A stretch of DNA of 64,000 bases from Mya arenaria (Eukaryota > Mollusca > Bivalvia > Myida > Myidae), in the NCBI RefSeq assembly GCF_026914265.1, contig NC_069126.1, forward strand, positions 25,397,473 to 25,461,472, in the 5' to 3' direction. The notes under the pieces were generated by a model. The model made no database searches, had not been told where the DNA came from, and saw nothing but the letters and a program-made list of their open reading frames with translations. The translations under genes were made by a program, and so were the position numbers. Shown here in pieces: positions 19,857 through 47,131 of this stretch; position 1 is the first letter of the stretch; every line of letters begins with the position of its first letter.

Positions 19857-19955
19857 CTATGAGGACATGCTCTGTCGGGCCGTGAACATGTCCTGGTACG
19901 AGGGAGGTGATTGGGACTGGTAGGCTGGTGGAGCAGACGGCGCTGCTGACGGGAA
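19857..19955 (-). CDS. TMEM145: TMEM145 exon 14 (C terminus, PPxY motifs)
   Basis: 32 codons and a TAG at 19859-19857. Encodes APPAYQSQSPPSYQDMF and a Ser-rich end. PPAY and PPSY, eight residues apart (start to start), are classic WW-domain ligands, so Nedd4-type ubiquitin ligase binding is plausible but inferred. Acceptor ATTGCAG. Confidence 0.88.
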   Translation of the reverse strand, partial: FPSAAPSAPPAYQSQSPPSYQDMFTARQSMSS

Positions 19956-22900: not shown

Positions 22901-25900
22901 AATCTACATAAAACAGTTCTGTACAGTAAATCTCAACAGTGATTGGATGGGTTCAGATTCAAATCAACCAATGGGATTTCAGCATACCAAAAAGAAGGCA
23001 TGTCCCACAGCACTCACACCTATTTCAAGACCATGCACTATTTTCTCGCGTTTATAGGCAGGGACAGCAAAAGATGCCACTAATATCATCACAGGGCCAG
23101 CCCAAAACCTGAATATCATAATGTTAATATCAATCAAAAATATATAAAATTTCCTTAGAAATAAAGATGGTTTTAATGGGCATAACACCCATACCAGTAG
23201 GGGAGAAGATACCGGATAGGAGTTGATCTCAAACAATCACGGCTTTTTTTTTTGTTTAAAAGAAATATATCAAATGCCTGTTAAAAATCAATCAATCAAT
23301 CAATCCGGTAATTGTGATGTTTCATTTGTTCAATATTCTATAATCAGTGTGTACATTCAACCCACAAAGTATGTCAGATGTCACAGAATGTCAAGTAAGA
23401 ACATGGTTCTAAAGGAGCCATATGATCTGCTGAAAAATATTTTTTAGGTGGCAATTGAAACCTTCAAACTATCAATTGTTTGAAATATTTAAAAATGAAA
23501 CAGAAACATAAGAAAAAACAAGAGTTGTCACAGTATGTGACGAATGCCCCCGAATGTGACATTGACCTTCGAACAAGGTCAGTACATGAAAAGTTGATCT
23601 TGCCTTTATGTGTCAAATACATATGGCAAGTTATTTTAATTTACTCTGAACATAAAATAAAAACACCCATACTTGACAACATACACTGTTATGTCCTTAT
23701 ATTCAGAATTCCCTTGTGAATAAACACTAAAGTGTATCTTTCACCTTAGAGGTAGGGACATGGGTCTTGCACAGGACACGTCGTCTTCGTATGTGGAACA
23801 CATGTAGCAAGTTATTTTAAAATCTGTCCTTACAAGGGAAAGTTACAGCCCGGACATGACAACCTATACCCTATGTCCTTGTATGCAGCACTCCATTGTG
23901 AATAAACACTAAGTGTGACCTTGACCTTTGAGGTAGGGACACGGGTCTTGCACGCGACAAGTCGTCTTGGTATGTGGAACACATGTGGCAAGTTATTTTA
24001 AAATCTGTCCATACAAGGGAAAGTTACAGCCCGGACACGACAACCTATACTCTATGTCCTTATATGCAGCACTCCATTGTGAATAAACACTATGTGTGAC
24101 CTTGACCTTTGAGGTAGGGACACGGATCTTGCACGCGACACGTCGTCTTGGTATGTGGAACACATGTGGCAAGTAATTTTAAAATCTGTCCATACCAGAG
24201 AAAGTTACAGCCCGGACATGACAACCTATACTTTATGTCCTTATACGCAACACTCCATTGTGAATAAACACTAAGTGTGACCTTGACCTTTGAGGCAGGG
24301 ACATGGGTCTTGCACCCGACATGTCTTGGTATGTGGAACACATGTGGCAAGTTATTTTAAAATCTGACTATACAAGAGAAAGTTACAGCCCGGACACGAC
24401 AACCTATACTCTATGTCCTTATATGCAGCACTCCATTGTGAATAAACACTAAGTGTGACCTTGACCTTTAAGGTAGGGACACGGGTCTTGCACGCGACAC
24501 GTCGTCTTGGTATGTGGAACACATGTGGCGAGTTATTTTAAAATCTGACCATACAAGAGAAAGTTACAGCCCGGACACGACAACCTATACTCTATGTCCT
24601 TATATGCAGCACTCCATTGTGAATAAACACTAAGTGTGACCTTGACCTTTGAGGTAGAGACAGGGGTCTTGCACGCGACACTTCGTCTTGGTATGTGGAA
24701 CACATGTGGCAAGTTATTTTAAAATCTGTCCATACAAGGGAAAGTTACAGCCCGGACACGACAACCTATACTCTATGTCCTTATATGCAACACTCCATTG
24801 TGAATAAAAACTATGTGTGACCTTGACCTTTGAGGTAGGGACACGGATCTTGCACACGACACGTCATCTTGGTATGTGGAACACATGTGGCAAGTTATTT
24901 TAAAATCTGTCCATACAAGGGAAAGTTACAGCCCGGACACGACAACCTATACTCTATGTCCTTATATGCAGCACTCCATTGTGAATAAACACTATGTGTG
25001 ACCTTGACCTTTGAGGTAGGGACACGGGTCTTGCACGCGACATGTCGTAATGGTATGTGGAACACATGTGGCAAGTTATTTTAAAATCTGACCATACAAG
25101 AGAAAGTTACAGCCCGGACACGACAACCTATACTCTATGTCCTTATATGCAGCACTCCATTGTGAATAAACACTAAGTGTGACCTTGACCTTTGAGGTAG
25201 AGACACGGGTCTTGCACGCCAAACGTCGTCTTGGTATGTGGAACACATGTGGCAAGTTATTTTAAAATCTGACCATACAAGAGAAAGTTACAGCCCGGAC
25301 ACGACAACCTATACTCTATGTCCTTATATGCAGCACTCCATTGTGAATAAACACTAAGTGTGACCTTGACCTTTGAGGTAGGGACACGGGTCTTGCACGC
25401 GACACGTCGTCTTGGTATGTGGAACACATTTGGCAAGTTATTTTAAAATCTGTCCATACAAGGGAAAGTTACAGCCGGATATGACAAACTATACTCTATG
25501 TCCTTATATGCAGCACTCCATTGTGAATAAACACTAAGTGTGACCTTGACCTTTGAGGTAGGGACACGGGTCTTGCAGGCGACACGTCGTCTTGGTATGT
25601 GGAACACATGTGGCAAGTTATTTTAAAATCTGACCATACAAGAGAAAGTTACAGCCCGGACACGACAACCTATACTCTATGTCCTTATATGCAGCACTCC
25701 ATTGTGAATAAACACTAAGTGTGACCTTGACCTTTGAGGTAGAGACACGGGTCTTGCACGCGACACGTCGTCTTGGTATGTGGAACACATGTGGCAAGTT
25801 ATTTTAAAATCTGTCCATACGAGGGAAAGTTACAGCCCGGACACGACAACCTATACTCTATGCTTATATGCAGCACTCTATTGTGAATAAACACTAAGTG

Positions 25901-28900: not shown

Positions 28901-31204
28901 AAATCAAGAAAAAATAACCCTTTATAAAACAAAAAACAAAAAATATGGATTATACAACAGATAAACAAAAATTAATATGGAAAAAAATATTTTTAACATT
29001 AACTGAAATATTAATCCATCATGGCAATAAAACAATAGCATGGCAATGCTCATCTGTATTTGCCCAGTCTCTCAAAGGGCGCAACTCTACAATTATTAAA
29101 AGAGTTACGAGCTTTGCTTCACAAAATGTATAAATCACTGGTAACATGTACTCACTTTCATGTAAATATTACTGATGTTTTCTTATTGATAAATCAAGTT
29201 TAAAGTGTTTGCTGCCATGAATAACACCAATGCTGTGACAATACTTTGACTTTCTCCTTTTTACAAGCAAACAAAATGAAACCTTGTTCTCATCCTGGTT
29301 TACTACAATCAACAATCACCAACTGTTTTTGAAGATAGAAAGAAAGAAGGGAAATAATCCATGCAGAAAAACAAAACAAGCGAATACAAAAGTAAAGTCC
29401 CTCTACCAGACAACAATGAAAACAGCCTTATGACATGGTCTTAATATCAAGAAAAAATGATGTATTTCTAACGAGTAATTTCTTCCTCTTGGAAAATCAA
29501 CTAAACATAGCTTTAGGTTGATTAAAAATGCTGTGAAGTTTATATGATAATTTCAAATACAACAATTTAATGGGGCCATGAATATCATAAGACTGTTAAT
29601 ATTGTACATGTTATATTTTGTACATTAAGCAATTTTGGGCATAGCCAGTGTAGTGCATTTTATTCTGATTGAACTCTTTGGATACAATCTTAGTACGTAA
29701 CCTAAACACATGATATACATAACTGTCAATACATAATCATAATAATATATTTGCCATTTGCTAGCTATGCCCACTGTGTTACTACATGCATGCTTATGAA
29801 TACAAAACCACTACCACTAAGCACTACCATCTTAGACGGGTCACGTGCATATAACTCACCAAAAAAAACAAATGACCACATAGCGTCACAAAATTTTCAA
29901 CCCCGACCACAGTTTTTTCTCGGGACCATAAAGCTATAGCAAACATCGCTACAATGATAACAATGGGACCAGCCCAAAACCTGAAAGTCAACATGTACAC
30001 ATTACTTTTATCAAGAGCATAGTACATGTACTGATAACATGTATATAGTTCTCCTCATATACAATATTACAAAATTGAACAGACTCTTCTTTGCATAATC
30101 TTGCTTTTGAAAGTGCATTTTAAATCACTAAAAAACACTACAATAGTAAATATATATTTTTTGAAAAGAACAGAAAAGGTTAACTAAAATTTGTGTCACC
30201 TTTGTCAACATGTCAAAACTGATGTCAATCCAGAGCAAATATCATACAACAAAAAAGAAAATCGTTATTTGAAACTTATTTTCAAATATGGATCAAATCA
30301 TTGGGTTGGTTTTAAAAACTGGAATTTTCTTTGTTCATCTGAATGAATAAAAATGGCTCATTCACTACGCTCACTACATCCGTTCTTAATCATAAAGGTT
30401 TTACTTCATGTCATCTAATTATTGCTTAAAATCTTTAAAATTTAGAACTATATGTTTAATATACTTCCTCAAACTCTTTGTTTATTTATAGATGTTTTAA
30501 ATTTGTACCATAATGTAGACTAGTATTTTTGCTATAAAAATAGACATTTGTATTATTCCCTGATTGTGTATTTGAAACATGTTTTTAAAAGTGTCATGGT
30601 CAAACATTTGAATGTTTTCTAATACAGTCGAAACTTGCTATGTCAAACTCTGTTATCTCAATGTTCAGGTCATGTCAAACTGTCTTGGATTGTCTTGGAT
30701 TTAGTTATACACTTTTTTGTATTTTGGTTATATCGGATGTTTGTCAAAGTATTTCCCGAGGTCTCAACAAATTTGACATAGCAAGTTTTGACTGTACAGC
30801 AAGTTTGCATTGTAGATATTGTGAGCCCCATTTTGGATCAGCCTGCAATTCCCTACATTATTCTTATTAAAATGAAATAATTTATAAGCATTATTGAAGC
30901 ATTTTTTGCTGTATATAAACAATGTTCTAATAATTGGTGTCTTGGAAATGTTTTGTTTATGGTCATTGTCAGCAACTTTTTTTGCTTTAAAGCTGACTTT
31001 TAAGGCCCTCAACCTAGCAGTGAAGATTGGGATTATAGTGTTATACCAACTTATTGAAAGGAAATTTACCTTTAAAATAATGCCAATAGTAAATTGTTCT
31101 GGATTCAATTACTACATGGCTTGTTGTAAGATCAGTTTGATGGAATATATTACAATATATAAAAAATTTCTTGTTACTAAAAATATTATTGAAGTGAACA
31201 TCAA

Positions 31205-31291
<87 letters not shown>

Positions 31292-34200
31292 ACTGTTTTA
31301 AGGCAATGTAACTTGCATCAATAAGCCACATTGTTTGTTAATTTAGAGTAAATATTTAATATCAAATGAATAATATAATTCTGTGAATATCAATTTCAAT
31401 TTTTGATTAAACAATTATCTTCCGCTTAAAAGGCTGATGAACCCTGTGGACTGAATCCATTTATGTACAGGTCCTAAAGAAACATTCAGATTATTTATTT
31501 TCTTTCTGTAAGTTTTTACTATTAAGACAAAACAAAGTTAAAATACCCAAATAAAAATTTTTTACACTTGATATACAACTTATTTATGATGCATCAACAT
31601 TTTACATATATTATATATATACGTACCAGAGGGTAAAAAAGATAAAGAAGGGATGGTAGAAGGATCCCTTCTCTGGGTAGTGTTTCAGGGTGAAGAAGAT
31701 TGCATAACAGAACCACGCGTAGCCGATGATGCGCATCACGATCATCACGTAACCAGGCGGGCTCTCGTACAGGTACAGGACGAGACCAGGGTCAAATATC
31801 TGAATCAAAGTGTTACAGCATGTACAAGTGATTATCAAAATGATTATATCAGTATGCTTTTGACCTTTAACAATAAGATGGACATAATATGTGCTACGTC
31901 CAAATGACATACCACTGGTGCATTCTATTTTAATGCACATCAAAGTCAATATTGAGCAAAGAGGTTTTTCATTTGTTGGTAAAAAGACACTTTCAAAATG
32001 CTTTCATAGTCTTTCTGGATTAATATTGCAGATACTGTAGTTTAAACATTGTGAGCGTTTAATTAACCCCAAATGATCATATCCCTAATTAAAACAAGAA
32101 CAATTGGTTGCGTTTCGTAACTTTTAACATTGCAAAAAGAGCCCAAAACAAAGAAAATCTTAAATTAAAGCAATCGAGCCAGTTTATTTTTTTTTAGACA
32201 AAGGTTGAAAACACGGTTATCTGCTTGTCACAATGATGCTAAATAAGTGATAAGCTAACAGTGAATTTTTTATGGTTACCACTCACTATAGCTTCCCATA
32301 TGAAGACGACAATGTAGAGAATGGTATAAATCGTCATAAACACGGATATCTTGATTGTGGACATGCTGCTCAGCTTCCCGCGTGTTATCGTGTAACCCTT
32401 TCCCATCAGAATCAACATCAGTAGGAACACCAATGTACTAAGGGCCTCAAACGCTCGACCTGAAAATAACTAGAACTGTAAGCCAAAGGCTAACGAATAC
32501 CCCCCAACCCTTCCCTGTCTAGGTTGTTTGCCCTGGCCTTAGTTATGGTATCATTAGAAAGCACAAGGCAATAATACAGGTGCACAAAATCACATATACA
32601 AAGGTTCACATCATGGTGATGGATAGCTGAAAGTTTGAGAAAAATATATTGAAAAATGACAAAGGAGTAGGCCACCAAAGCGAATATTGTAACAAATTTA
32701 AGGCCTGTATGCACCTTCAGGACTTTTGATGGTCTTTTTAAGGACAAAATCAATTAAAGGTCTTTTTAAGGCCATGCAAACTTTCTGATTAATACAGGTG
32801 CACCAAATCACATATTCAACAGTTCATATCATGGTCATTGACATCTGAAAGTTTGAAAAAGATTTATAGAAAAAATGAGAAAAAATGACCAAGGATTAGG
32901 CTAGACAAAGCTGTATAATTTTTGCCTATTTTAACTTATTCAGGGGCCATAATTGGAGACATGATCATGTGATTCCAACCACAATCACAGGGGCAAATGT
33001 TCTCACCATAACTAAAAGTTTGAAAAAGATTCATTCAAAAATGACGAAGGAGTAGGACGAACAAAACTAATTTTACCCAATTTAACTCATTAAGGGGCCA
33101 CAACTCCACTCAGGATCATGTGACTCCCACCAAATTCATGGAGGCAAAGGTTTACATCATGGCCATTAATATTTGAAAGTTTGAAAAAGATTTGCTCAAT
33201 AGCTTCAAAGAAGAATCCTGGACAAAGCTAATTTTGCCCAATTTAACTCATTAAGGGGCCACAACTCCACTCAGGATCATGCGACTCTGACCAAATCCAG
33301 GGAGGCACAGGTTTACATCATGGTCACTAATATTTGAAAGTTTGAAAAAGATTTGTTTAATAACGACAAAGATGAATCCCGGACAAAAAAAAAAACGGAC
33401 GGACAGACGGACAGACAGACGGACAACCCGATTCCAGTATACCCCCCCAAACTTTGTTTTGGGGGGTATAATAATGTAAATAATGGCTAGGCTTATAAAA
33501 GTCTGGCCTACGAAAAGAAGTAAAATGTATCATGAATTATCTTTAATATTGATCACCATCAGTGGATCTTTATAAATGCTTTAGTGGGTGTCATATGAAA
33601 CCATTTTACTCAAATTTTGAGTTCACTATAGAATATGACATTTAATTGTACCCTTGTTGGTAAAAGGACCCGTACGAGTTGAAATAATTATGCCATGTTT
33701 TTGTATATACATATTGCTACTTTATGACCATCATGAAATAGTGAAGCAGCCCACTGACCAGCATATTTGGTAGCCTGAAGTTTCTCATAGTTGCCATCAT
33801 TGCCATACACGCCATATGCCATGGACATTAAGAAGAGATAAAACGTCCACAGGAACACCGACACCATGTACATCTTGTATGTTGTGTGCCACAACTGACG
33901 ATTACGTAGAAACACTGAAAAAACAACAGGACCATTTGCACAATCAGACATCGTGTACATCTTTGTTTGTTGTGCGTCACAACTGACGACTACACAGTAA
34001 TTCTGAAAGAAACAGGAAATTAAATTCATCTTGTACATGATGTGAAACATTTTAGGGTTATGCAGTCACACTTAAAACACCAAAAATATTGACCATTTTA
34101 AATCAGCCACTAAAATTGAACACAGCCTTTACAAGATCTGTGCATTATCCTCTCTTATAACAGTATCACCCCTCATAGAGTTCTTAGCACTATGTTTACC

Positions 34201-37200
34201 TAAAGTATATCATACATACCAGCACACACGATGACCAGGGCCGACAATAGCACATAGACAATCAGGAAGGCGACGTCAATCGGCATGATGTCTACATGAA
34301 ATACAAAAAAGATGTCCAATATGTAAATAGATTTAATATGTGAATACAAAAAAGTAACAAGTAATTTCCAACGGGCTAGATAATTTTTCAAAAGAAAGAA
34401 ATGATATGTAATTATCAAAATAATTAATGTTTGTTTACAATTTCACTGCAAAAAATAATACAGTTGGTAGGTCACTTTTGATTTTATGTAAAGCTGTGTC
34501 TGAAAGCCATTTTCACACTTCAAACCTTCACTATTTGTCAGGGTCAACATTCACTACAACGCTCCAAAACAGCATATGTTCATACATAATGCTTGTACAA
34601 AAAGCTACTGAAAATATCTTTGCCCATAAGCATATAAAATCAATGATCAGAAAAGAATTCTTTGGTGGCATTTAAAAAAAAAAATTATGGTCGGGTGAAA
34701 AAAGAGACAATGGAGAAAGAGCAAAAAAATGTTTTACTGTTATGGGTTTTAAGCTTGTACTTGAATTAGGCGAAGAAGAAATTGATAATTACATGAGTTG
34801 TAAACTCATAAGATGGTGCAATCAAAGTCCAAGAAAAATGACAAAAATGCAGATAACTCTTACAAAATTCATCGGCAGAATACTCCCGGTGTAAATAATC
34901 TCCAACCTCAGCATTTGTCATGTGAATTTTGTACTTCAGTTTTATACCAACAGGCTGTAATGGTAAAATAAACAAAATTTATGTCCCAATATCTCAGTGC
35001 TATCAGCCATCAAATAAAACACCAGCTGCCAGCTATTTCTAGTATTTGTTAAGTGATTATTTGGAGTCATTCAAAGTGCATTTATTTTACAGCTGTACTA
35101 GAACATAACTGAATTCTATCAACACAAACATCTTACTGATATAAGTGTTGATTGTTTTATCAGAGAAATACAAGCTGGCAAAATGATGTTTATTTACAAT
35201 GATTTACAAAAAACAATTAAATTACATTATCTATATAATATACTATGCTGACTTAATATTGACAAAAATAGTTTGTTTTCATGATATCAACTTTAATTAA
35301 TATTATAAACCATGTTAATATTTTTTTTAAATATTTACAAAATTTATGTGCTTCTATATATGTGATATATTAAAGCAAAGTTATTTATACACGCAGTGCC
35401 ATGTTAAATATAGCAACGAAATACAATGCAAGACAAATTTGCAAATACAAGCAAAGCAAACAAGCACACACATGTGTTACAACAAAACACATTAGTACAA
35501 AACATACATGACAAGAAAAGCATAACAATTTTTATTCGATACAAGGGTAGTTGAACAGCACATGCACATTAAGGAGGCAATTCAGATAGACAAACTTAAA
35601 ACTAAGATTCACAGTTCTTACTGATATCTGAAGTGAAAATCCAGTATTTTTTAGAAAAAAAGTGTGAGTCCAGCCTTTTTTATGCTTTTTAGATTTCTTT
35701 TATAAAACCTCCACATCCCTACCCATGATTTGAGAATACCTGATAACAAGAGCTGTCACAGAGACAGCGCGCTCGACTATTCCACCGCTTTTCAGTGTAA
35801 GGATTGAAAAGTTTTGGCGAAACATGCATGGATCACAGTGTTAGATTAGATTCCAATGCAATACATGATGTGCTGAGATATTAACATAAATGTGGTTACA
35901 TGCAAAACCTTAACCAGAATTTCTATGTCAAATAAAAAAGGGCCATTATTTGCAAAATACAGTTATCTAACTTGGTTATTCAATTAGGTTGGGTGGTTGA
36001 ATACCATAGTATAAAGTCTTAATGCAATACATCAAGTAATTGCTGAGATAATATCCTATGTGTGCTAACATGCAAGACCTTAACCAGAATTTCTAAGTCG
36101 CATACTTAAGGGGCAAAAATGATATAATATGAAAGATAGAGTTATCTAACTTGATTAAATAAGAAGGTTAAATGGTTGGGAGCATGTGTGTAAAGTTTCA
36201 ATGCAATACATGATGTATTCGCTGAGGTATTGACTTCAAAGTGGTTACATGCAAAACCTTAACAAGAATTTCTATATCGAATAAAAAAAGGGGCCATTAT
36301 TTGAAATTAATGCAAACTAGAGTTATCTTTCTTTGTTATTTAAGTAGATTGGATGGTTGAGTACCATTTTATAAAGTCTCAATGCAATACATCCAGTAGT
36401 TGCTGAGATATTAACTTAAATGTGGTTATATGCAAAACCTTAGCCAGAATTTCTAAGTCGAATAATAAAGGGCAATTATTTTGCATTAAATGCAAACTAG
36501 AGTTATGTAACTTGATTATTTTAGTAGGTTGGATGGTTGAGTACCATTGTATCAAGTCTCAATGCAATAACTCAAGCAGTTGCTGAGATATTAACCTATG
36601 TGTGCTTACACGCAAAACCTTAACCAGAATTTCTAAGTCAAATAATAAAGGGCAATTATTTGCATAAAATGCAAATTAGAGTTATCTTACTTGGTTAATT
36701 AAGTATGTTGGATGGTTGAGTACCATTGTATCGAGTCTCAATGCAATACCTCCCGTAGTTGCTGAGATATTAACCAATGTGTGCTTGCACGCAAAACCTT
36801 AACCAGAATTTCTAAGTCGAATAATAAAGGGCAATTATTTGCATTAAATGCAAACTAGAGTTATCTAACTTGGTTAATTAAGTAGGTTGGATGGTTGAGT
36901 ACCATTGTATCAAGTCTCAATGCAATACCTCAAGCAGTTGCTGAGATAATAACCTATGTGTGCTTGCATGCAAAACCTTAACCAGAATTTCTAAGTCAAA
37001 TAATAAAGGCCTATTATTGGCATTAAATGCAAACTTATAAGTATCTTCCATGGCCGAGAGTGTAAGATAGGTTCATCCCGACCCTCGCGTAGGGTGTTTT
37101 GCGGAAACGAGGTTAACCGAGTTTCTGCAAAACACACAGCGCGAGGGTCGGGATGAACCTATCTTACACGAGCGGCTATGGTAGATGCTTTTTCTCCCAT

Positions 37201-40200
37201 CTCAGTTAAACAAAATTAAGTAACAATGCATTTTTTTGCCGGAACTCTTTTATGCTTAGTGAAAATAATTGCGTACGAATATGCAATAATTCGTGGTTGT
37301 CATGAATATTCGCCCAGTGATTCAGAGTATGTAAATGGTCTGATCGGTCTTTAAATATTTCTAAGAAGAGTGAAGCATTATTTCTTGAAAGGTGCGTTAA
37401 AACTGTTTTCTGGTGACATTTGAAGCGAGAAATAATTAACTCGCGTTCTAAATATTGCCAACGGACAAGGTTTCCATGATGCGCTACAAACGACAGTCTT
37501 CAACAAGGGAGGTAATTACAATGTGGTGACCATTAAAAGAAGTTCCATCCGGGCATTTTATCTTCGCCCGTGGGCAAGATTATAAGTATCTTCCATGGCC
37601 GAGAGTGTAAGATAGGTTCATTCCGACCCGAGCGTAGGCTGTTTTGCGGAAAGGAGGTTTACCGAGTTTCCTCAAAACACCCTGCGCGAGGGTAGGGATG
37701 AACCTATCTTACACGAGCGGCTATGGTAGATGCTTTTTCTCCCACCTCAGTTAAACAAAATCAAGTAAAAATGTATTTGTTGCTGGAACTCTTTTGTGCT
37801 TAGTAAAAATAATTGCGTATGGATATGCGATAGCACATGGTTGTTATGGATATGCGCGCAATGATCCAGTTAATGTTAATAGTCAAATCGGTCTTTTTAA
37901 ATAGTTCTAAGGAGATTGAAGCATTATTTCTTGAATGGTGCTTGAAAACTGTTTTATGGTGACATTTGAAGCGAGAAATAATTAATTAGCTTTCTAAATA
38001 TTACCATAAGACAAGATTTCCTTGCTGCTACTGACGACAGTCTTCAACAAGGGAGGTAATTACAATGTTGTGACCATTAAAAAAGGAGTTCCATACGGGC
38101 ATTTTATCTTCGCCCGTGGGCAAGATAAGAATATCTAGCATGGTTAAATTATTGGATCTACTTATCTGAGGTGGGAGAAAAAGTGATCTTACTTGGTTAA
38201 TTAAGTATGTTGGATGGTTGAGTACCATTGTATAAAGTCTCAACGCAATACCTCAAGTAGTTGGTGAGATATTAACCTATGCGTGCTTGCATGCAAAACC
38301 TTAACCAAGGGGTGACGCCGACGCAGACGCTTGGGTGAGTAGTATAGCTCTCCTTATTCTTCGAATAGTCGAGCTAAAAATGTAATAAAATAACTGTATA
38401 TAAACTAGATGCTAATGGCGACATGTATGGCCCATTGAAAGAGCCTTTGACACAGACGGTTCTCTTCTATGCAAATGCAACATAGAAGAACATGGAGTTA
38501 AACAATATGTGTACCTGTGAAACTACGCATCATCATGGTGAACCTTCATGGCAAGTTGTTGTTTTTTTTAAATCCTATATTAAATGCATGGTAAAGATAT
38601 AGCCCACATAAGGCTGACAGTCCAGACAAGGCCTATACTCAGCACTCATTTTGACAAGTGTGACTTTGATCTTTGAGGTGCAGACCTGAGTCTTGTGCAC
38701 GACATTGCCATCTCATCTTGGTGAACCTTCATGGCAAGTCTTTTCAAAGTCCTATACTGCATGGTCAAGATACATCCTGGACAAGGATCATTTCAACCTT
38801 TGACCTCTAAGCGCAACCTTGTCCTTTGAGGTGCAGACCTGGGTCATGTGTGCGACACGCCATCTCATCATGGTAAACCTTCATGACAAGTTTTTTGAAA
38901 ATCCTTTACTGCATGGTCAAGATACAACCTAGACAAGGATAATTTCAACCCTTGGCCTTTAACCTTCACCTTTCTCTTTGAGGTACAGACCTGGGTCTTG
39001 TGGGCGACACGCCACCTCATCATGGTGACCTTTTTTTAAAAATCTATACTGCATGGTCAAGATACAGCTCATACAAAGTTTAGTCCAGATTGATGCGAGC
39101 ACGCAAATACTATGCCTCGCTCAGCGCAAGTGGGCTTGACAAAAATGTTAACTTGTTAAATTAAACCTAGACTCAGAAATGTAGTTAGAAAACATAATAG
39201 TAAACAAAAATTTGAAAACAAATTATGAGAATAAAAACAACACTATCAATAGAAACATTAAATATTGGGTTACAAAAGGTACAGAATAAGCTGTATTATC
39301 CATTCATATATTTAGCAGTACATTGTAAAACTAAAAAAAATATATTAGCAAATTAGAAAATAATCAGTCAGTTTCTGGGGTATACCATACAACCAAACAC
39401 AAAAAAGTTCCCAAACTTCACAAAATTGCAGAGGATTTTATTGTAACCATGAATACTAAGTAGCAGCGTGTATATATACATGCAATTGTTGCTAGCACTA
39501 AGCAAAGTGAGAATGAGTTACATTACAGTAGATCAAGCTTAGCCAACTTACACCAGTAGAATTTCTGTCATGGCAACGACTTATGGCCATGTACCACCAT
39601 CTCTCACGAGTTGATTGGAAATATCGGTCATCATTGCACTTTATACTGTCAACACCTCCGATAACTTTGTATTCACAATTGACATATGTGTACAGAAGTT
39701 GGATTGAAACTGACGTATTGTACGGGAATGGCATGATTCTTAATCTTTGTCCATTTTCAATTTTTGCCACATCAACTTTTTCTTGGCAGGACTGTTGAGG
39801 AGTAAATAACAAGAAATAAGTCTAACTTAAACAAATATTCTTTAGAGACCTCTGTAACATAAAATCCTTCACAATTCTGATAAGGCTTGGTAGAATTTTT
39901 GGCTGGATTCGATGAGGATATGCATAAACAGCAGAAAACACTTTGCCTGAGTTCTGATGTCATTGTATGCACTCTGTCTTACAATGATACCTAACCACAA
40001 ATATGAAATATCAGGCTATTTCAGACATAAAATTAAGCCAATTCAATGATCATTTCAGTCACATAGAGGATAATTGTTTGTTTCGGTGTAAGATAGCATT
40101 ATACTTTATCGAGTACCGGTAAGCACCAAAAGTTTTCAGTTATGCACCAAAAAGCATGAATTGAACTAAAATGACTACAGCATCTTATGATGTGTTATTT

Positions 40201-43200
40201 TTTGGCTTAAAATGTCTAGACGTGCTCTTCTGTATTCCACGATAACCTAATAGAGAGCACGCCGAGAACACCACCCACCCCCGACCCCTCCCCTGACAAG
40301 CCTACACGTCTGTTTTTGTGCAGCTTCGTCCCAAACTATATTGTATGTAATGGCAAAAGGCTCTCATATTGTAAAATGCAAAAACTGAACTAGGACACCC
40401 CTGCAAGCAAACCAGTTAATAGAGCAAGCAGGCAGGCAAGCAAAAGGCAATTAGTCTAAGCAATCATATACATAATCAAAAACACCACAGACAATCCACC
40501 ACTAAATAAACAATTGATATATCAAAATAGCATGTGGGCACAAAAACCATGTGGCATGATGACTGCAGTGTCGTTTCCTTGCACTTACTGTCTGTGGGTT
40601 ACAATGTGACACTGCTATGTACCACCAACGTTCTCGGGCTGATCGGAAAGATCTTTGTTCCGAACAATCATATTGCTCAACACCGTCAATGATAACCCTT
40701 GAGCACCCAGCACCATGTCCCTCCAAGAGGACTATTGCTTGGTTATTCTCTGGTTTCAGGACGGATTCTCGCTCTGTGCAATTCTGTTGTACATGAATTT
40801 AATGCAAAAAAGTGACAAAAATAAAGATAACAACCAAAAACGAGTGGCTACCTGTGAATATACAACAATCATAAACTTAACATAGCCTTGCTCAAACAGA
40901 GCTTTGTGCTCCATCAAACATCATTCACTTACATCGCCCTCACTCAGTTCACACCGGCTGACAGCAATATACCACCAGCGTTCCCTCGATGATCGAAACT
41001 TTCGCCCACCAGAACATTTATACATATTATTTTCAATAATGCAGCCTGAGAGAGCATTTTGGGTGGACAGGTAAATGACTTGGTTGTTGACAGGATTCAG
41101 GGCTGCAACTTTCTGGGCACAGGTCTGTATAAAGCAGAAAATACTAGCAATATCGAAAAACAAGACTAGTGTCACCCAAATAAAGCCATGTAAATGGGGC
41201 ATGAAAAAAAAATGTTGGCTGTTTATTGAACATCAGAGCCTCAACATTTGTAACACATCATACAAATAATTCAGTTCTTTCATATTTTCTGAAATAAAAA
41301 GTTGTGTTTAAGTGGTACAGGAATATTTCAAAAAGTTACAATCATACACAAAAAAAAGAATTAGTTATATTTTATGCTTTTTACAAATCAAACCATTTCT
41401 ACAAGAATTACAGAAAGCTTCTTATGTGGCTTTTTTTATTATTAACTGATTATGCATTTAACTAATTGATGTTTGCCAACTATTTATACATTGATTATCT
41501 CTGCACACACCCTGGACTTAAAACTCATACTTATTTTTATTTCTGATTTTTTTTTTCATTTATTTTTTCATTATTTAGAAATTAAAATTTGGTTAACTAA
41601 GATATCAGTCTGTGTTTTCACAATAATTTTAGAGTTAGACACTCTCAGTGAATTCAATCTGTGTGTAAAGTCTTATAAACGAAGGATTTTGAATATCAAT
41701 CTGTCCACAACAATATGTATGCCAAGTCTTGATGTCAAACTTGAAAGTCCGCTGCATTACTTGGCAATGGTGTATATTGTTCAAGTTTGGTTCATGAAAC
41801 ATGAAGTATAGGCATGAAAAAAAATAAACCTATGTTTAATCAATTCACTACATGGGCTGCGAAAGTGGTCAAGTGGTTAAGGTGTCCCACCTCACCCAAG
41901 AGGTTGTGGGTTTGATCCCTATCTGGGGTAAATTCCAATGGCATCTTAAAAAGGGCGCAGCACAGGTTTCTACCTAGGATACGGATTTGAATTATTCATA
42001 TCAGCTTTTAGCTGTTTTCACAATCAAGCTGAAATAACCAAGTATAAACTAAACAATAATTGAGCAAAACATGTAAATGTATGACTCAAATTGAACATGG
42101 AAGACTTGGCATAACTGTGATAGTTAGCTAAAAACCTTTGAAAATTATTGAGCTAAGGGGACAGTGTGAACTCACATCACTTGTTTCATTCTTGTAACAT
42201 CTACTTATTGCAAAGTACCACCAGCGCTCCCGAGATGACTTAAATATTCGTCCCCCGATACAATCAAACATTCCATCGTCGGTGATAATACACCCCGATA
42301 GACCATAATCTGTCGTTAAGTTTACCACCTGATTGTTGCTTACATCTAGAACAGCTTCTTTTTCCTCACAACTCTAGTGAAACAATAGTTTGTATTTGTA
42401 AAAAACACACACAAAAAACACACTAAAAAGTCAATATTAGATTATGCTTGTCCATGGTAAGTTTAAAGATTGCTAAAGATAAAAATTCAAGTCCATAAAC
42501 ATTTAATTGTCTGGACTTTTACTCACAACTCTTCATTGACTTAGTAGAACAAATGACTATTCAAATCAGGGTGGCTCATTATGAGAGGCACAGGAACATG
42601 TTTCAGCCCTTAATCTAACACTTTGGTTAGAGAAAAGTACACACATTCTTGAAATTTGTGGTCCTGCTATTAATTTAGAGGTAAATCAATAAAATTAAAA
42701 ACTCTTACCCCTTGAAGATATTGAATACATAGATTTCTTTAAGACAGTATTGTATTTTATGATAATGTGACTCTCAAATATGTGTTTACTTTATATCTGA
42801 TTGGAAGGAGTGTTTATCACGAAAATGTGCAGCATTTACATTAAATTACATACTTCCTTATACAAGCCATGTAATTCAGATTGGATTATATTTGGCAAAT
42901 TCTTTAAATGGCCAGCTGCCAAAATTTAAGTATTATGGTAATCTCTTAAACTTAATTTCGTGTCCTCAAATATTTACCATCATATTTTCGCACATAATAT
43001 AACAATTAAAACCAATCGAAATGGTCACTTGATATTTAAAAGCTCAATACGTGTAAAACTATGACCTGTTCTTAGCTTCACCCTAGGAAAGGAAATACAT
43101 AATATATCAATTCATGTGAAAACATGTGTACACAAAAAGCTGTTATTCTTAAGTCGAAACTTGATCACTTAGTAAAATAAGAATACAACCAACATTTTCA

Positions 43201-46200
43201 GACAAAAGCTTTGCATATAGGCAATCATTAAAGAACAAGGCTTAATTGTTCAGATTCCAACTTTCTGGGGTGTTTAAAGCTCCCCTACTGCTACTCCTGC
43301 TACTGATACTCCCGGCGTCAGATTTTGCATTGACAATGTGTCAGCCAATGAGGTTGTATCACGTGCATGGGCAAGTCAATTAGATGACCAGAAGTAATAT
43401 CTTAATTATTAAGAAGGACTTGTTTTTGATTTTAAGATTTTACTTTGTCATTTAACTATTACTTAAATTACAAACTACATTTTCAGCCAATAAAATTGCA
43501 GACAGGCAATCATTAAGCACTAGGCTTAATCATTAAGAATTTTCAACTTTCGCAGGCATTTAAAGGTCTGCCAATTGCCACTCATACAATACACACTCTT
43601 TGCTTCAGATTTTGCATTGACTATGTGTCTGCCAATTTGCTCATTTGCTACGCTCACTCAGCCCATTCTTAGTCATTAAAATGTTACTTCATGTCATCTA
43701 ACTATTACTTAATTCATCTGATTTTATGCACTGTGTTTACTAAGTCTACAAATTATGATATGTACATGTATGATATTATACAAATAAAATTTTGCAAAAC
43801 AGTGCCATTTACTTTTTTTATTTTGTTTTTTACATTTTATTAATAAATTAAATAGAGTGATGCTGAATTTATCTTACGAATGATATTACATCAGACATAG
43901 GGGTGATTTTAAACAGTAGTACTGCAGTATTTAAAATATCTCCTGAATTGAAAATTGCTTTAACATCTCTCTTGTGTACCTTTCCTGATTTGTAAACAGC
44001 AGCCCACTGGTCCTCTGTGTCAAAGTAGAGCAAGATATTCTGTGGACCATATTCCTGGAACAATGGAACATGAGGGATATATTACCAGGAATGGTAAAGA
44101 TTAAGAGATCGTAACATTGTTGGGTTGTTCTTTTTATACTGAGGTTGCCATACTCCATTACTTCATGAACTCTGTAAACTATTGTTCAAATATTATGGTT
44201 GTATTGTTAGTTGAGCTAAATGACAAATCTACCAACACTGGAAATTATGCTATATTACAAAGGTATTGGCAATGTTTAGTCCATGTCAAACAAAAGAACT
44301 TTTATAATGGAACATTCCTTGTCACGTAATGTTCTAAATAAAGATATATATTTGACATGTTACATATTATTTTCAAATACTCAATAAAGTAGTTGACTAT
44401 TTCTCAATACAGTTTATCATCTGATATGCCACTCATCATACATACAGCATATGGACATGCAGTTAGTGCCAAAATATATTTTTATCACAAAAAAGCAAAT
44501 TTTTTTTTACTTCATTTCATAAATATATCCAGAAATATTTTATTTTTTAAAAGAATCAAAACATTATGTATTCGTATAATTGCAATATAACCAGTGCATG
44601 CATGGAGGACTGCTAGCTTCATAGAGAATGCTTGATCAGCACTCAACTGAATGATTGTTTATTCAATTTATGCATGCAATCTATGCCCAGACACAAACAT
44701 TTTAAAACATGTATTTATGTATGCATGCACAGATCATTATTGATTTATCTGGAACAGATATTTTTTATTTGGTAGGATTGGCCAATACCCTAGTAAAACA
44801 TGAGCACCGTTTATATATATGTTTTCAAAATCCTTTAATCTATTTTTGAGGTCAGTGTTTTCCACAAGTCAGTTAAATTAAATTATGAAACTGTTTAATC
44901 TTTAACCATTTATAACCTTCTTAACACACTTAACACCTTTACATATAAAGACATTGAACTGAATGTGACCATTACATAAAGCTTTAAAAACCAATACTTA
45001 AAATGTAGCACTAAATGAAATATTGTCTGTAACATCATTAAACATTCTGAACTTATATATTTATGCCATTTAATTCAATTATTTCCCATATATATCTTTT
45101 ACTTTTTACACTAGACTTAGTTTTTTATATGTTCTACCTTGGCATAAAAAACAATAATTGGTTTTCATAATGAATAAGAAGTAGAAGATCCCAAATAGTT
45201 GTTCACTGCACGTTCATGAATAATGAAAACAAGGTGTATTTACAGTTCTAATCTTAACAACAGTTAACACCATTTATGTGAATGAACTTGCCATCTTCAT
45301 AATTGACAGACATGTATATTTCGGAAACATGACTGTCAATCCAGGGGCCACAGATTCGAGCCCTGTTGCTGTGGTTCTAGGTGCTATTCAAATGTGCATG
45401 TTAGAGAACCCGAGTAGCTCTAGGGTTATTGTGTACTAAGCCCCACAATCCTAAGCCTAACAAAACTGATTTTCTAGGTGGTGCTGACACCCCAGGAATT
45501 GTGAGGTGGAACTCAAGACTAAAAGCACCATCCCCCCACCCCCAGTGATTTTCTGTGTGGTGTCAATCTGTCAAAACACATGAATAATACATGGGCAACA
45601 AATTATTCAACAATAGCGCTGCAGAGCGATTGCTAATGCAGGTGTTGTTTTTTTTTAGTCAAATACATGCATGGGGCATTAATATTTCATTTGAACATCT
45701 TGAAAAGTTATTAAACCAGGGCCAAGTTTTTGCATTACTTTTTAAGTTAATTCATGTTTTAATTATAACAAGGCATAACTCCACAAATATTCAAGCATAG
45801 ATATGGGCCTTGCAACACATGTAGAAAGGCTATCACAATAACTAACCCTTTTTTTAAGAAGAGCTTAAAATGCATCTGATCAAAACTAATTAATTAAGGG
45901 ACAACTCACAACTGGGTACTGGAATTCGAACTGCAGTGTCCCCTTCTTTGAAAGGAAACAAAACCGTGTAATGAACAGCCAGTCCTGAAAAACATGTAAA
46001 AATGCATGCATATACCAAACAAAATGTTGAATTTGAAAATTATCCAAATAGTGAACAAAAACTGTGCACCCAAAAGGTCTTGTTGGGAAGATAGCTGGTC
46101 TAAAATAACAGATGTTCATTACAGGATTATGGACCGCTAATCCCTAACAATTGTGAAAGTGAAGAATCTGCCATATTTAAAATTGTAAAAAAAAATGTCC

Positions 46201-47131
46201 ACTGAATTATTTGGACTATTAAGATAGCCAGTATTTTTGCCTTTACATTGACGGATAGCCTTTTATTTAGAACATGTTTTCATAATGACCTTTCAAATCC
46301 AATGGATTTTGGAAACATTGATAGCTAACATTACATCATACGGGCTCATCTCATGACAAAGCTTTCAACAAATTTTGATGTCCCTAAGACAGAGAGTTCT
46401 ACAATTTGAGTTTTTAAACGGAAACAGTTTTAAGATCAAGGTCACCAGAATTCATTAAGATTCATCTACTGGTTATGAGTTGACCAACGATTGAACCTGT
46501 TTACATGTAATTTGAGGTCCAAGGGCCCCTGGGTTCTTCAGTCATTTATTCAAAATGGATTTTCAGTTCAAGGTCATCACAACTTTGCCCTACTGACCTC
46601 AAAATCGATAGGGTTCATTACTGGTCATTACCAGCCTATCTACCAAGTTGGAGGTCCCTGGGCCTTAGTGTTTCTAAATTATTCATAGAAAACCGATGGA
46701 AGGACAGGCAGAGGGTCAGAAAGGCAGTGCAATTATTGTTTACTGCAGTTAGTGGGCATCCAAATTACACAAATTCATGATAAAACTTCAGATACGACAG
46801 AATAACAAGCATTCACCATTTGTGGTTCATTTATTTGAAATAAAAAATGAAACATTTTAATAAATGAATTGTGTATAAATTGACACTTGTTCACTCCGTT
46901 GATTTACAGAAATGTGTAAATTTGGCGCTGTCTTTGACATGTATATTGTGGCTAATTAATTCAAAGTAAAGTAAGATCCTAATGGGGTACGAAAAGAATA
47001 GTGTACGAAACTTGTTTACACTGGATACGCCATACCTCTAGAGAATCAATTTCTCCTTCCGCCCATTTTCCGTTACAAGATGGAGTAAGTAAAAATAAAC
47101 AAATAACTGATGTCAAGAAAACGTTATTCAT
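19857..47131 (-). CDS. TMEM145: TMEM145 orthologue, 14 exon positions, two alternative-exon clusters
   Basis: The spliced protein (577 residues with exon 4D) has a signal peptide, a GOLD-like ectodomain, seven membrane helices and a cytoplasmic tail with two PPxY motifs. Conserved strings match TMEM145 of the GOST family (with GPR180, TMEM87, GPR107): LFITRFCFLS, QNILLYFD, RERWWY, YSADEF, LWHTTYKMYM, LMGKGYTITRG, FDPGLVLYLYESP, HYPEKGSFY and RPQAANKNFPYHVRT. All introns are GT-AG and phases match throughout. Exon 4 exists in four versions (42.3-39.6 kb) and exon 10 in two (29.9 and 23.0 kb). Vertebrate TMEM145 has been reported in stereociliary link structures of cochlear outer hair cells; the role here is unknown. 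Vertebrate TMEM145 is about 490 residues; the extra length is in the tail. Confidence 0.95.
20801..20911 (-). CDS. TMEM145: TMEM145 exon 13 (cytoplasmic tail)
   Basis: 111 nt, phase 0 to 0; encodes FNRPNPQVVMPRGR and an acidic end, NAEDVDDSYSD. Acceptor ATTATAG, donor GTAAGG. Its length is a multiple of three, so skipping would keep the frame. Confidence 0.85.
20987..21710. mobile_element. HINE-like non-autonomous element 1 (intron 12)
   Basis: Begins with gagctgtcacagagatagcg, contains about three diverged copies of a ~180-bp repeat (aatgcaatac, accttaaccagaat, gagttatctaact), and ends with gagtagtatagctctcctttt. It has the same ends and internal unit as the larger element at 35754-38382. 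Confidence 0.7.
21782..22015 (-). CDS. TMEM145: TMEM145 exon 12 (cytoplasmic tail)
   Basis: 234 nt, phase 0 to 0; a Gly/Ser/Asn-rich tail with GPDLTNLFVTS, which resembles the vertebrate (V)PNFTELF segment, and EPEYTQ at the end. Acceptor ATTTCAG, donor GTAAGT. Confidence 0.9.
22320..22379 (-). CDS. TMEM145: TMEM145 exon 11
   Basis: 60 nt, phase 0 to 0; encodes RPQAANKNFPYHVRTTQ, the conserved segment right after TM7. Acceptor TTTGCAG, donor GTAGAA. Confidence 0.93.
22988..23108 (-). CDS. TMEM145: TMEM145 exon 10, version 2
   Basis: 121 nt with the same phases as version 1; encodes FWAGPVMILVASFAVPAY, KREKIVHGLE and VGHAFFL. Acceptor ATTCAG, donor GTATGC. The REKIV(x)G string is nearer to vertebrate TMEM145 than version 1, so this may be the ancestral copy. 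Confidence 0.93.
23519..26622. mobile_element. HINE-like element 2 with ~15 internal 181-bp repeats (intron 10)
   Basis: The left end has gagttgtcacag followed by TGCCCCCGAA (23545-23554). The right end has a GGAC run (about 26560-26580) followed by TTCGGGGGCA (26603-26612), the exact inverse. Between them are about 15 copies of a ~181-bp unit with tgaccttgacctttgagg and gcaagttattttaaaatctg. Subterminal inverted repeats, long internal satellite and short GGAC run fit Helentron-associated (HINE, DINE-1/pearl-like) elements. It sits between the two exon 10 versions. Fragments of coding-like frames here are repeat artefacts. Confidence 0.8.
27736..28248. repeat. 55-bp tandem repeat, 9 near-identical copies
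   Basis: Nine full copies and one partial copy of a 55-bp unit containing gaagtatgaagaatcccag and ggcaatcatcgatag, with very few differences (28087, 28103, 28143, 28221). High identity implies recent expansion. It is intronic, between the two exon 10 versions. Confidence 0.97.
29860..29980 (-). CDS. TMEM145: TMEM145 exon 10, version 1
   Basis: 121 nt, phase 2 in and 0 out; encodes FWAGPIVIIVAMFAIALW, SREKTVVGVE and CGHLFFL, covering the end of TM6, the loop and the start of TM7. Acceptor TTTCAG, donor GTGAGT. It is a paralogue of the exon at 22988-23108. Confidence 0.93.
31207..31287. repeat. (TA)n microsatellite
   Basis: About 40 uninterrupted TA dinucleotides in the intron between exons 9 and 10. 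The Ile/Tyr frames through it are artefacts. Confidence 0.98.
31627..31799 (-). CDS. TMEM145: TMEM145 exon 9 (TM5, start of TM6)
   Basis: 173 nt, phase 0 in and 2 out; encodes FDPGLVLYLYESP, TM5 (IIGYAWFCYAIFF), KHYPEKGSFY and the first half of TM6. Acceptor GATTCAG, donor GTACGT. The phase-2 donor fits both copies of exon 10. Confidence 0.93.
32287..32459 (-). CDS. TMEM145: TMEM145 exon 8 (TM3, TM4)
   Basis: 173 nt, phase 1 in and 0 out; encodes TM3 (LVFLLMLILMG), the family string GKGYTITRG, and TM4 (ISVFMTIYTILYIVVFIW). Acceptor TTTTCAG, donor GTGAGT. Confidence 0.93.
32472..33476. mobile_element. HINE-like element 3 (intron 7)
   Basis: A left TACCCCCCAA (32498-32507) is matched by a right TTGGGGGGTA (33459-33468). 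Inside are about four diverged ~190-bp units with ttcatcatggtcat-type phrases, aagtttgaaaaagat and ttaaggggccacaac, then a (GGAC/GACA) run (about 33395-33425) and a hairpin of TATACCCCCCCAA with TTGGGGGGTATA. Same architecture as elements 1, 2 and 4. Confidence 0.75.
33759..33914 (-). CDS. TMEM145: TMEM145 exon 7 (TM2)
   Basis: 156 nt, phase 1 to 1; encodes RQLWHTTYKMYM, TM2 and a loop containing GVYGNDGNYEKL. Acceptor TTTTCAG, donor GTCAGT. Confidence 0.92.
34220..34291 (-). CDS. TMEM145: TMEM145 exon 6 (TM1)
   Basis: 72 nt, phase 1 to 1; encodes the first membrane helix (DVAFLIVYVLLSALVIVCA). Acceptor CATGTAG, donor GTATGT. Confidence 0.92.
34864..34954 (-). CDS. TMEM145: TMEM145 exon 5
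   Basis: 91 nt, phase 0 in and phase 1 out; encodes KLKYKIHMTNAEVG and the conserved YSADEF before the first membrane helix. Acceptor ATTACAG, donor GTAAGA. It lies 4.6 kb downstream of exon 4A. Confidence 0.92.
35754..38382. mobile_element. HINE-like element 4, interrupted by foldback copies (intron 4)
   Basis: Starts with gagctgtcacagagacagcg, followed by GCTCGACTATTC (about 35769-35780). Ends with gagtagtatagctctcctta and GAATAGTCGAGC (about 38364-38375), the exact inverse of the left stem. Seven or eight ~180-bp internal repeats lie between. The inner sequence breaks at about 37036 and resumes at about 38180 around two foldback units. Confidence 0.8.
37036..38140. mobile_element. two tandem 545-bp foldback elements nested in HINE 4
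   Basis: Two ~545-bp units begin with tataagtatcttccatggcc (37036 and 37581). Each opens with a ~110-bp perfect-to-near-perfect palindrome whose arms run gtgtaagataggttcat... and its inverse (about 37060-37169 and 37605-37716). Each ends near attttatcttcgcccgtggg. A further inverted match links ctttttctcccacctcag (about 37733) to ctgaggtgggagaaaaag (about 38166). No coding is present. Confidence 0.78.
38410..39130. repeat. degenerate tandem repeat related to bivalve satellite-type elements
   Basis: Three or four copies, about 150-190 bp apart, of phrases such as gaaccttcatggcaag, tactgcatggtcaagata and tgaggtgcagacctgggtc. They resemble the internal unit of element 2 at a distance. Ends are not defined. 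Confidence 0.6.
39552..39791 (-). CDS. TMEM145: TMEM145 exon 4, version A (last in transcript, most diverged)
   Basis: 80 codons, phase 0 to 0, acceptor CAACAG, donor GTAAGT. It keeps the first-Cys SCQEK and STRERWWYMAISRC ends but has a longer, unrelated-looking centre with an extra Cys and two sequons (NTS, NST). The added 14-16 residues change the size of the domain. Confidence 0.9.
40589..40783 (-). CDS. TMEM145: TMEM145 exon 4, version B
   Basis: 65 codons, phase 0 to 0, acceptor CAACAG, donor GTAAGT. Contains ESVLKPENNQAIVLL, a diverged centre, and SARERWWYIAVSHC. One sequon (NCT). The first third resembles vertebrate TMEM145, while the central part has diverged. Confidence 0.92.
40933..41124 (-). 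CDS. TMEM145: TMEM145 exon 4, version C
   Basis: 64 codons, phase 0 to 0, acceptor TATACAG, donor GTAAGT. Contains VNNQVIYLSTQNALSGC and SSRERWWYIAVSRC. It has no N-glycosylation sequon, unlike the other three versions. Only 149 nt of intron separate it from version B. Confidence 0.93.
41850..42040 (+). mobile_element. tRNA-derived SINE
   Basis: A tRNA-like head has an A box (TGGTCAAGTGG, 41866-41876) and a B box (GGTTTGATCCC, 41909-41919) at tRNA-like spacing, Leu/Ser-like. The acceptor arms do not pair, and a SINE body (cagcacaggtttctaccta) follows. It lies in intronic DNA between TMEM145 exons 4D and 4C. Confidence 0.7.
42176..42373 (-). CDS. TMEM145: TMEM145 exon 4, version D (first in transcript)
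   Basis: 66 codons, phase 0 to 0, acceptor CACTAG, donor GTGAGT. Contains SNNQVVNLTTDYGLSGC and SSRERWWYFAISRC. Two N-glycosylation sequons (NLT, NET). Versions D and C are the closest to vertebrate TMEM145, so one of them is probably the ancestral exon. Confidence 0.93.
43980..44054 (-). CDS. TMEM145: TMEM145 exon 3
   Basis: Encodes 25 residues, phase 0 to 0, with QNILLYFD and QWAAVYKSGK. Acceptor TTCCAG, donor GTACAC. It is the fixed exon that all four exon 4 versions would join. Confidence 0.93.
45910..45984 (-). CDS. TMEM145: TMEM145 exon 2
   Basis: Encodes 25 residues, phase 0 to 0, containing LFITRFCFLS and LQFEFQYP, the start of the GOLD-like domain. Acceptor TTTTTCAG, donor GTGAGT. 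This is among the best-conserved segments of the family. Confidence 0.93.
46290..46735. repeat. dispersed mollusc-type repeat in TMEM145 intron 1
   Basis: Two diverged ~145-bp copies of a unit with aaggtca(c/t)ca, attcat(c)tac and gaggtcc(a/c)(a)gggcc, ending near aaaaccgatggaaggacag. Probably a non-autonomous element remnant. Confidence 0.45.
47036..47131 (-). CDS. TMEM145: TMEM145 exon 1 (start, signal peptide)
   Basis: Encodes 32 residues from ATG 47131-47129: a hydrophobic signal peptide (VFLTSVICLFLLTPSC) then GKWAEGEIDSLE. The donor is GTATGG in phase 0. This ATG was chosen because it directly precedes the signal peptide and the frame joins exon 2 exactly. Confidence 0.9.

Follow-up and report, generated by a model that had tools for sequence, protein, structure and literature searches.

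The 64 kb stretch of Mya arenaria DNA analysed here (C5:25397473-25461472; referred to below as the window, with positions counted from its first letter) carries the whole of TMEM145, encoded by the minus strand. The data suggest that this is one gene with a cassette of four versions of exon 4 and, further downstream, a pair of alternative exons 10 (10a and 10b), and that each mRNA carries one of each. We give this reading a probability of roughly four in five. A preliminary description of the locus had proposed the exon 4 cassette; the duplicated exon 10 was absent from it. The exon 4 cassette is a real and ancient set of alternative exons.

The full form of the protein with 4b and 10b matches TMEM145_N (PF21892) at 161.8 bits (cut-off 28.1) and GPR180-TMEM145_TM (PF10192) at 162.4 bits (cut-off 23.7). 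The form 1-2-3-4c-5-6-7-8-9-10a-11-12-13s-14 is identical in every letter to a deposited protein, P0001 ('transmembrane protein 145-like isoform X2 [Mya arenaria]'), which carries 4c, 10a and a shorter exon 13 (13s). Consistent with this, the named relatives among the 120 listed of 615 database matches are mostly called TMEM145 or TMEM145-like. With both domains far over their cut-offs and the 4c form identical to P0001, the earlier assignment of the gene to TMEM145 is supported.

The four exon 4 versions lie in tandem between exon 3 (43980..44054) and exon 5 (34864..34954), the upstream and downstream partners common to all of them: 4a (42176..42373; 198 nucleotides (nt), 66 codons), 4b (40933..41124; 192 nt, 64 codons), 4c (40589..40783; 195 nt, 65 codons), the version of deposited isoform X2, and 4d (39552..39791; 240 nt, 80 codons), which has a longer loop. 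All are on the minus strand, as are the other exons given below, and all are phase 0-0. The preliminary description had placed these four phase-matched exons correctly to the base. The first residues after the phase-0 AG acceptor are SC in 4a, TC in 4b, NC in 4c and SC in 4d, the stretch RERWWY-x-A-x-S-x-C is present in all four, and the phase-0 donor is GTGAGT for 4a and GTAAGT for 4b, 4c and 4d. Each version gives an open frame once joined to exons 3 and 5. The common X-C start, RERWWY end and GTRAGT donor and the in-frame joining described earlier were thus all found again. No constitutive exon separates the homologous versions, which are adjacent and share one phase; the introns between them are 1051, 149 and 797 nt long. 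When the window was searched with P0001 by tblastn, 4b, 4a and 4d were matched with E-values of 4e-12, 1e-10 and 1e-9, respectively, so the likeness of the other copies to 4c is not due to chance. Nine TMEM145 queries against the 64 kb window revealed neither a fifth exon 4 nor more duplicated exons beyond chance.

The versions have diverged considerably and yet remain constrained. The proportion of synonymous differences (pS) is 0.76-0.91, i.e. saturated, in all six pairs, and that of nonsynonymous differences (pN) is 0.29-0.51. Seventeen of 80 aligned columns are identical across the four versions, which all retain RERWWY and four cysteines. These cysteines, together with R-x-R-W-W, are also invariant in an alignment of 76 TMEM145 proteins that ranges from molluscs to mammals (the structure alignments used 76 of the 120 listed proteins). 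The ectodomains with 4a, 4b, 4c and 4d score 161.8, 165.3, 160.8 and 141.1 bits, respectively, against TMEM145_N, and the score drops to 79.7 bits when exon 4 is left out. The versions therefore appear to be old and under purifying selection: saturated pS together with the preserved frame, splice sites and invariant residues argues that they are not decaying relicts.

A tree of exon 4 was built from 32 segments, four from M. arenaria and 28 hand-picked from 120 and 70 listed proteins. The hand cuts were checked against the proteins, and a partial middle piece of the Mactra protein P0002 was excluded. When the four ectodomains were used in a fragment search, 70 matches were obtained, including a 4a form from Ruditapes (P0121). 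In the tree 4a clusters with Mactra segment 1 and this partial Ruditapes protein (support 98), 4c with Ruditapes X1, Mercenaria X1, P0006 and Mactra segment 3 (support 89), 4d with Dreissena X1 (support 100) and 4b with P0136 (support 87). The joined Mactra model has a 4a piece, a partial piece and a 4c piece, in the same order as in Mya. An origin of the four versions within Mya was rejected, as forcing them together costs 95 log-likelihood units (approximately unbiased (AU) test, p 6e-6); sisterhood of the two Dreissena exons was rejected less firmly (AU 0.014, Shimodaira-Hasegawa test 0.206). With the 4d region as sole query, two Mya proteins were reached among 12 candidates. This is no sign that 4d is absent elsewhere, because Dreissena X1 has the 4d class. 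Taken together, the class tree and the AU rejection show that at least 4a, 4c and 4d predate the split of these clam genera.

Deposited isoforms of other animals suggest that the versions are used singly. Dreissena polymorpha X1 and X2 share 469/469 residues outside the exon 4 segment, compared with 31/62 within it. A similar pattern is seen in the nemertean Lineus longissimus, where X3 and X6 share 465/465 residues outside and 34/67 inside, and in Ruditapes, where P0121 and P0003 share 101/104 outside and 29/59 inside. By comparison, five between-species control pairs show 77-99% identity inside exon 4 and 70-96% outside. The two Lineus exons cluster together in the exon 4 tree (support 96), so that this pair is probably the product of a separate duplication. 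In amphioxus, two proteins, each from a different species, are 66% identical inside exon 4 and 95.5% outside, a suggestive case. Proteins P0001, P0005, P0007, P0048 and P0096 each hold one version, as do P0006 and P0013, which are frames of 527 and 569 residues on contigs of 1,898 and 1,863 bases. A gene with introns of this kind would not fit on contigs of that length, and we infer that these two are transcripts.

The second duplicated exon, 10a (29860..29980) and 10b (22988..23108), encodes the outer half of transmembrane helix 6 (TM6), the extracellular turn and TM7. Both versions are 121 nt long and have the same phases; they have 23/41 residues in common (pS 0.69, pN 0.34) and are separated by an intron of 6751 nt. 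Joining 9-10a-10b-11 reads into stops, and skipping both loses 121 nt and shifts the frame. Since either both or neither would shift the frame, the exon 10 pair is exclusive, whereas exon 4 is not so forced. In a comparison of 22 proteins 10b had no clear match (Dreissena 25/41, Solemya 24/41, Mya 10a 23/41), and the oyster versions are nearer to 10a than to 10b, which does not show a shared age for the versions of exon 10. Two proteins of oyster type, P0036 and P0047, agree in all of their first 360 amino acids and diverge from exon 10 onward; past exon 10, P0047 departs from the family's reading.

The predicted fold has a GOLD beta-sandwich before a seven-transmembrane (7TM) bundle, which is the GOST architecture, and comparison of folds brought up the solved GOST structures of TMEM87A and WLS. 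A sequence search of solved structures gave no GOST relative, just weak unrelated matches. Half of the GOLD domain comes from exon 4, with a short helix and four out of nine predicted strands; its versions differ in charge, and their sequences vary most in the parts that are not strands. A passage in the TMEM87A structure paper (PMC9711517) suggests that GOST proteins bind cargo via the GOLD domain plus the 7TM cavity; the swapped exon 4 loops of the model would fit this idea, and the variable parts may face a ligand or partner. The database proteins P0133, P0137, P0138 and P0149 are TMEM145-like with a long insert in the exon 4 loop (by eye, more than 100 residues in each of the three complete proteins), and the inserts end in a furin-like motif (RIRRS, RVRRS, RVRRH, RRKRE) directly before the next strand. 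The Lingula anatina isoforms P0037 and P0041 differ in a stretch of TM1 that corresponds to Mya exon 6 (34220..34291) and in their C-termini, a third site of alternative exon use in TMEM145.

Several points weigh against the use of one exon 4 and one exon 10 per mRNA. The isoforms compared are database gene models or assembled frames; RefSeq-style isoforms usually rest on RNA reads. The exon 4 tree was made from an alignment of 88 columns and its deep nodes are weak, and the frame of P0136, the partner of 4b, continues into a second similar piece. Among the deposited Mya proteins seen, 10a occurs and 10b does not, and the sole version of exon 4 found alone in such a protein is 4c. The last point would also be expected if 4c alone were in use and the other versions were duplicates in decay, an explanation that we consider very improbable. 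Frame, splice sites and invariant residues are intact in all four versions despite the saturated synonymous sites, the 4a, 4c and 4d classes recur in other clam genera, and the 4d class is in use in Dreissena's deposited X1. Relict status for 4a, 4b and 4d was rejected on the constraint (pS/pN).

Further points against single use are that all four exon 4 lengths are multiples of three, so that double inclusion and skipping are in frame, and that the Mya model P0009 joins 4c to 4d and the Mactra model P0002 joins three pieces. These would be consistent with two or more versions being spliced together to give a longer outer domain. We think this improbable. In the predicted structure the exon 4 strands sit in a single sandwich closed by exons 1-3 and 5, with no evident place for a second copy, and the five proteins from P0001 to P0096 named above hold one version apiece. 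Additionally, P0009 lacks exon 3 and exon 10 and misreads exon 8, and for these reasons we take it to be a faulty gene model. Of the mutually exclusive cassette put forward in the preliminary description, the alternation of single versions is supported by the isoform pairs of other animals and the class tree; strict exclusivity of exon 4 is unproven, as it is not forced by the frame and P0009 and P0002 join versions.

The known routes to exclusion were also considered. Steric hindrance operates when the intron between two versions is too short to splice, and the introns here are 1051, 149 and 797 nt for exon 4 and 6751 nt for exon 10, which does not point to this route. Mixed U2/U12 sites are recognized by the U12-type donor consensus; all four exon 4 donors (GTGAGT or GTAAGT) are of the ordinary U2 type. 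A scan for docking RNA, with eight shuffles each, covered three intronic regions: the intron between exon 3 and 4a, and the two ends of the intron between 4d and exon 5, on either side of its middle 2.7 kb. The best duplex in the intron between exon 3 and 4a scored -17.8 (shuffles -15.7 to -17.6), exceeding its shuffles by a marginal amount; in the first 900 nt of the intron between 4d and exon 5 the score was -16.6 (shuffles -15.6 to -20.0), within the shuffles, and in the last 900 nt -19.2 (shuffles -15.1 to -18.1), again a marginal excess. The scan thus gives no clear case for a Dscam-type docking structure, a further point against single use. The lack of a frame penalty for exon 4, introns (1051, 149 and 797 nt) that pose no obvious block to splicing, and the unclear docking structure would all be compatible with a looser choice, regulated by tissue with a minority of double or zero inclusion. 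This overlaps with the use of one version per mRNA and we regard it as a minority possibility, against which the Dreissena and Lineus isoforms contain exactly one version each.

If each mRNA indeed takes one exon 4 and one exon 10, the gene would specify up to eight receptor bodies, and more than eight if both C-termini are used. The exon 4 versions keep the cysteines and core strand and alter the loops, charge and glycosylation motifs, and the choice of exon 10 alters the outer half of TM6, the turn between TM6 and TM7, and TM7. In Mya RNA the exon 4 versions would be used singly, with the choice regulated by RNA-binding proteins, which is our guess, or by intronic elements, and the swapped loops may change the binding of cargo or partners. 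More tentatively, recognition in clams could be combinatorial, with exon 4 setting the GOLD loops and exon 10 the 7TM cavity at its outer end and wall, two separate choices that tune one site for a cargo or partner, and with exon duplication favoured repeatedly in clams, in the nemertean and perhaps in amphioxus. Were this so, the GOLD loops would be the recognition surface of TMEM145 in all animals, including the protein of the stereociliary links of hair cells.

The complete gene model has 14 exon positions running from 47131 to 19857. Exon 1 (47036..47131) encodes the start codon and the signal peptide region and is identical to P0001, and the comparison with P0001 also covered exon 2 (45910..45984), exon 3, exons 5 and 6, exon 7 (33759..33914), exon 8 (32287..32459), exon 9 (31627..31799), exon 11 (22320..22379) and exon 12 (21782..22015). 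Exon 6 lies in TM1. Exon 13 (20771..20911) has, in our reading, a possible long form with a stop; the shorter form 13s uses an inner donor at 20801 and is the one in the deposited X2, the final exon of which is exon 14 (19857..19955). In intron 6, at about 33,990-33,945 on the minus strand, there is a stretch of 47 nt similar to the beginning of exon 7, a small partial duplication; the identity, as determined in the second copy of the locus described below, is 85%. The intron between 4d and exon 5 contains, at 37029-38131, two units of a repeat about 545 nt long, both of which include an inverted repeat (by eye), beside six copies of a 180 nt repeat.

Two exon searches of the genome (1,216,080,610 bases in 18 contigs) indicate one TMEM145 gene in two assembled copies, although a diverged paralogue could escape such searches. 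The window belongs to a region of which a near-copy, inverted and 100 kb or more in length, lies 25 Mb away on the same scaffold (C5:670001-780000 versus C5:25372679-25476761). Identity is mostly 99.3-99.8%, with some pieces at 97.6-98.4%, and the match continues at the ends of the fetched sequence. All four exon 4 versions are identical in the two copies; exon 8 has one difference and exon 10b two. The near-copy is either a real duplication or a second haplotype left in the assembly.

Upstream of TMEM145, at 58735-49193 on the minus strand, is an arylsulfatase-like gene with two pairs of tandem homologous exons. In the first pair (about 56,710-56,600 and 56,070-55,940) FQWHLG...YFDH and FQWHLG...YYDH share 24/39 residues, and in the second PLYLY...RRLFAG occurs twice (about 55,190-55,060 and 55,010-54,890). 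The arylsulfatase label was given by eye, and a Pfam scan of one C-terminal piece matched nothing. The 64 kb window gave no tRNA, and no Rfam family reached the gathering score there.

Tandem alternative exons are of a known kind, and TMEM145 is a new case. Literature searches, judged by title and the start of the abstract of the papers listed, found no published description of such exons for TMEM145 or another GOST protein, in line with the preliminary description, which knew of none for TMEM145; the matches included papers on splicing in liver cancer and of Toll-like receptors. Nor is TMEM145 named in the main text of two papers on human alternative and duplicated exons. Such isoforms are, however, already in the deposited annotation for Dreissena and Lineus. 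The unusual points are the orphan receptor family and the apparent repeated duplication of one exon in separate lineages. In parts of PMC12716839 the TMEM145 ligand is listed as unknown, and passages of PMC12569810 and PMC12716839 cite Roh et al. (2025) as tying TMEM145 to hair-cell stereociliary links. The naturally swapped segments mark the residues of the core and those free to vary for a partner. They also add a GOST protein to the genes diversified by tandem alternative exons, and this gene has a second pair, locked by the frame.

The Mya gene has both Pfam domains and the fold in common with TMEM145 of the GPR180-TMEM145 branch of GOST. Each vertebrate TMEM145 protein seen has one exon 4 segment, of one closely similar type, as the preliminary description stated, in comparison with four exons 4 and two exons 10 in Mya; the protein database was clustered at 90% identity, which can hide isoforms differing solely in exon 4, and counts of species with one version therefore mean little. 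TMEM87A is 13% identical to the Mya protein across aligned residues. In TMEM87A a disulfide links the outer domain to the H6-H7 linker, as stated in a passage of PMC9711517, whereas that turn lacks a cysteine in both 10a and 10b. The gene resembles Drosophila Dscam (PMC1397879) in having tandem homologous exons in more than one cluster, but it has just four and two versions, belongs to a different receptor family and shows no clear docking or selector RNA in the regions scanned. Finally, the freshwater mussels Sinanodonta and Potamilus have, as in Mya, several diverged exon 4 sequences per genome. In the mussels neighbouring locus tags imply separate TMEM145 genes, apparently in tandem (P0010, P0029 and P0150 in Sinanodonta; P0011, P0033 and P0035 in Potamilus), in contrast with Mya, where the versions lie within one gene.

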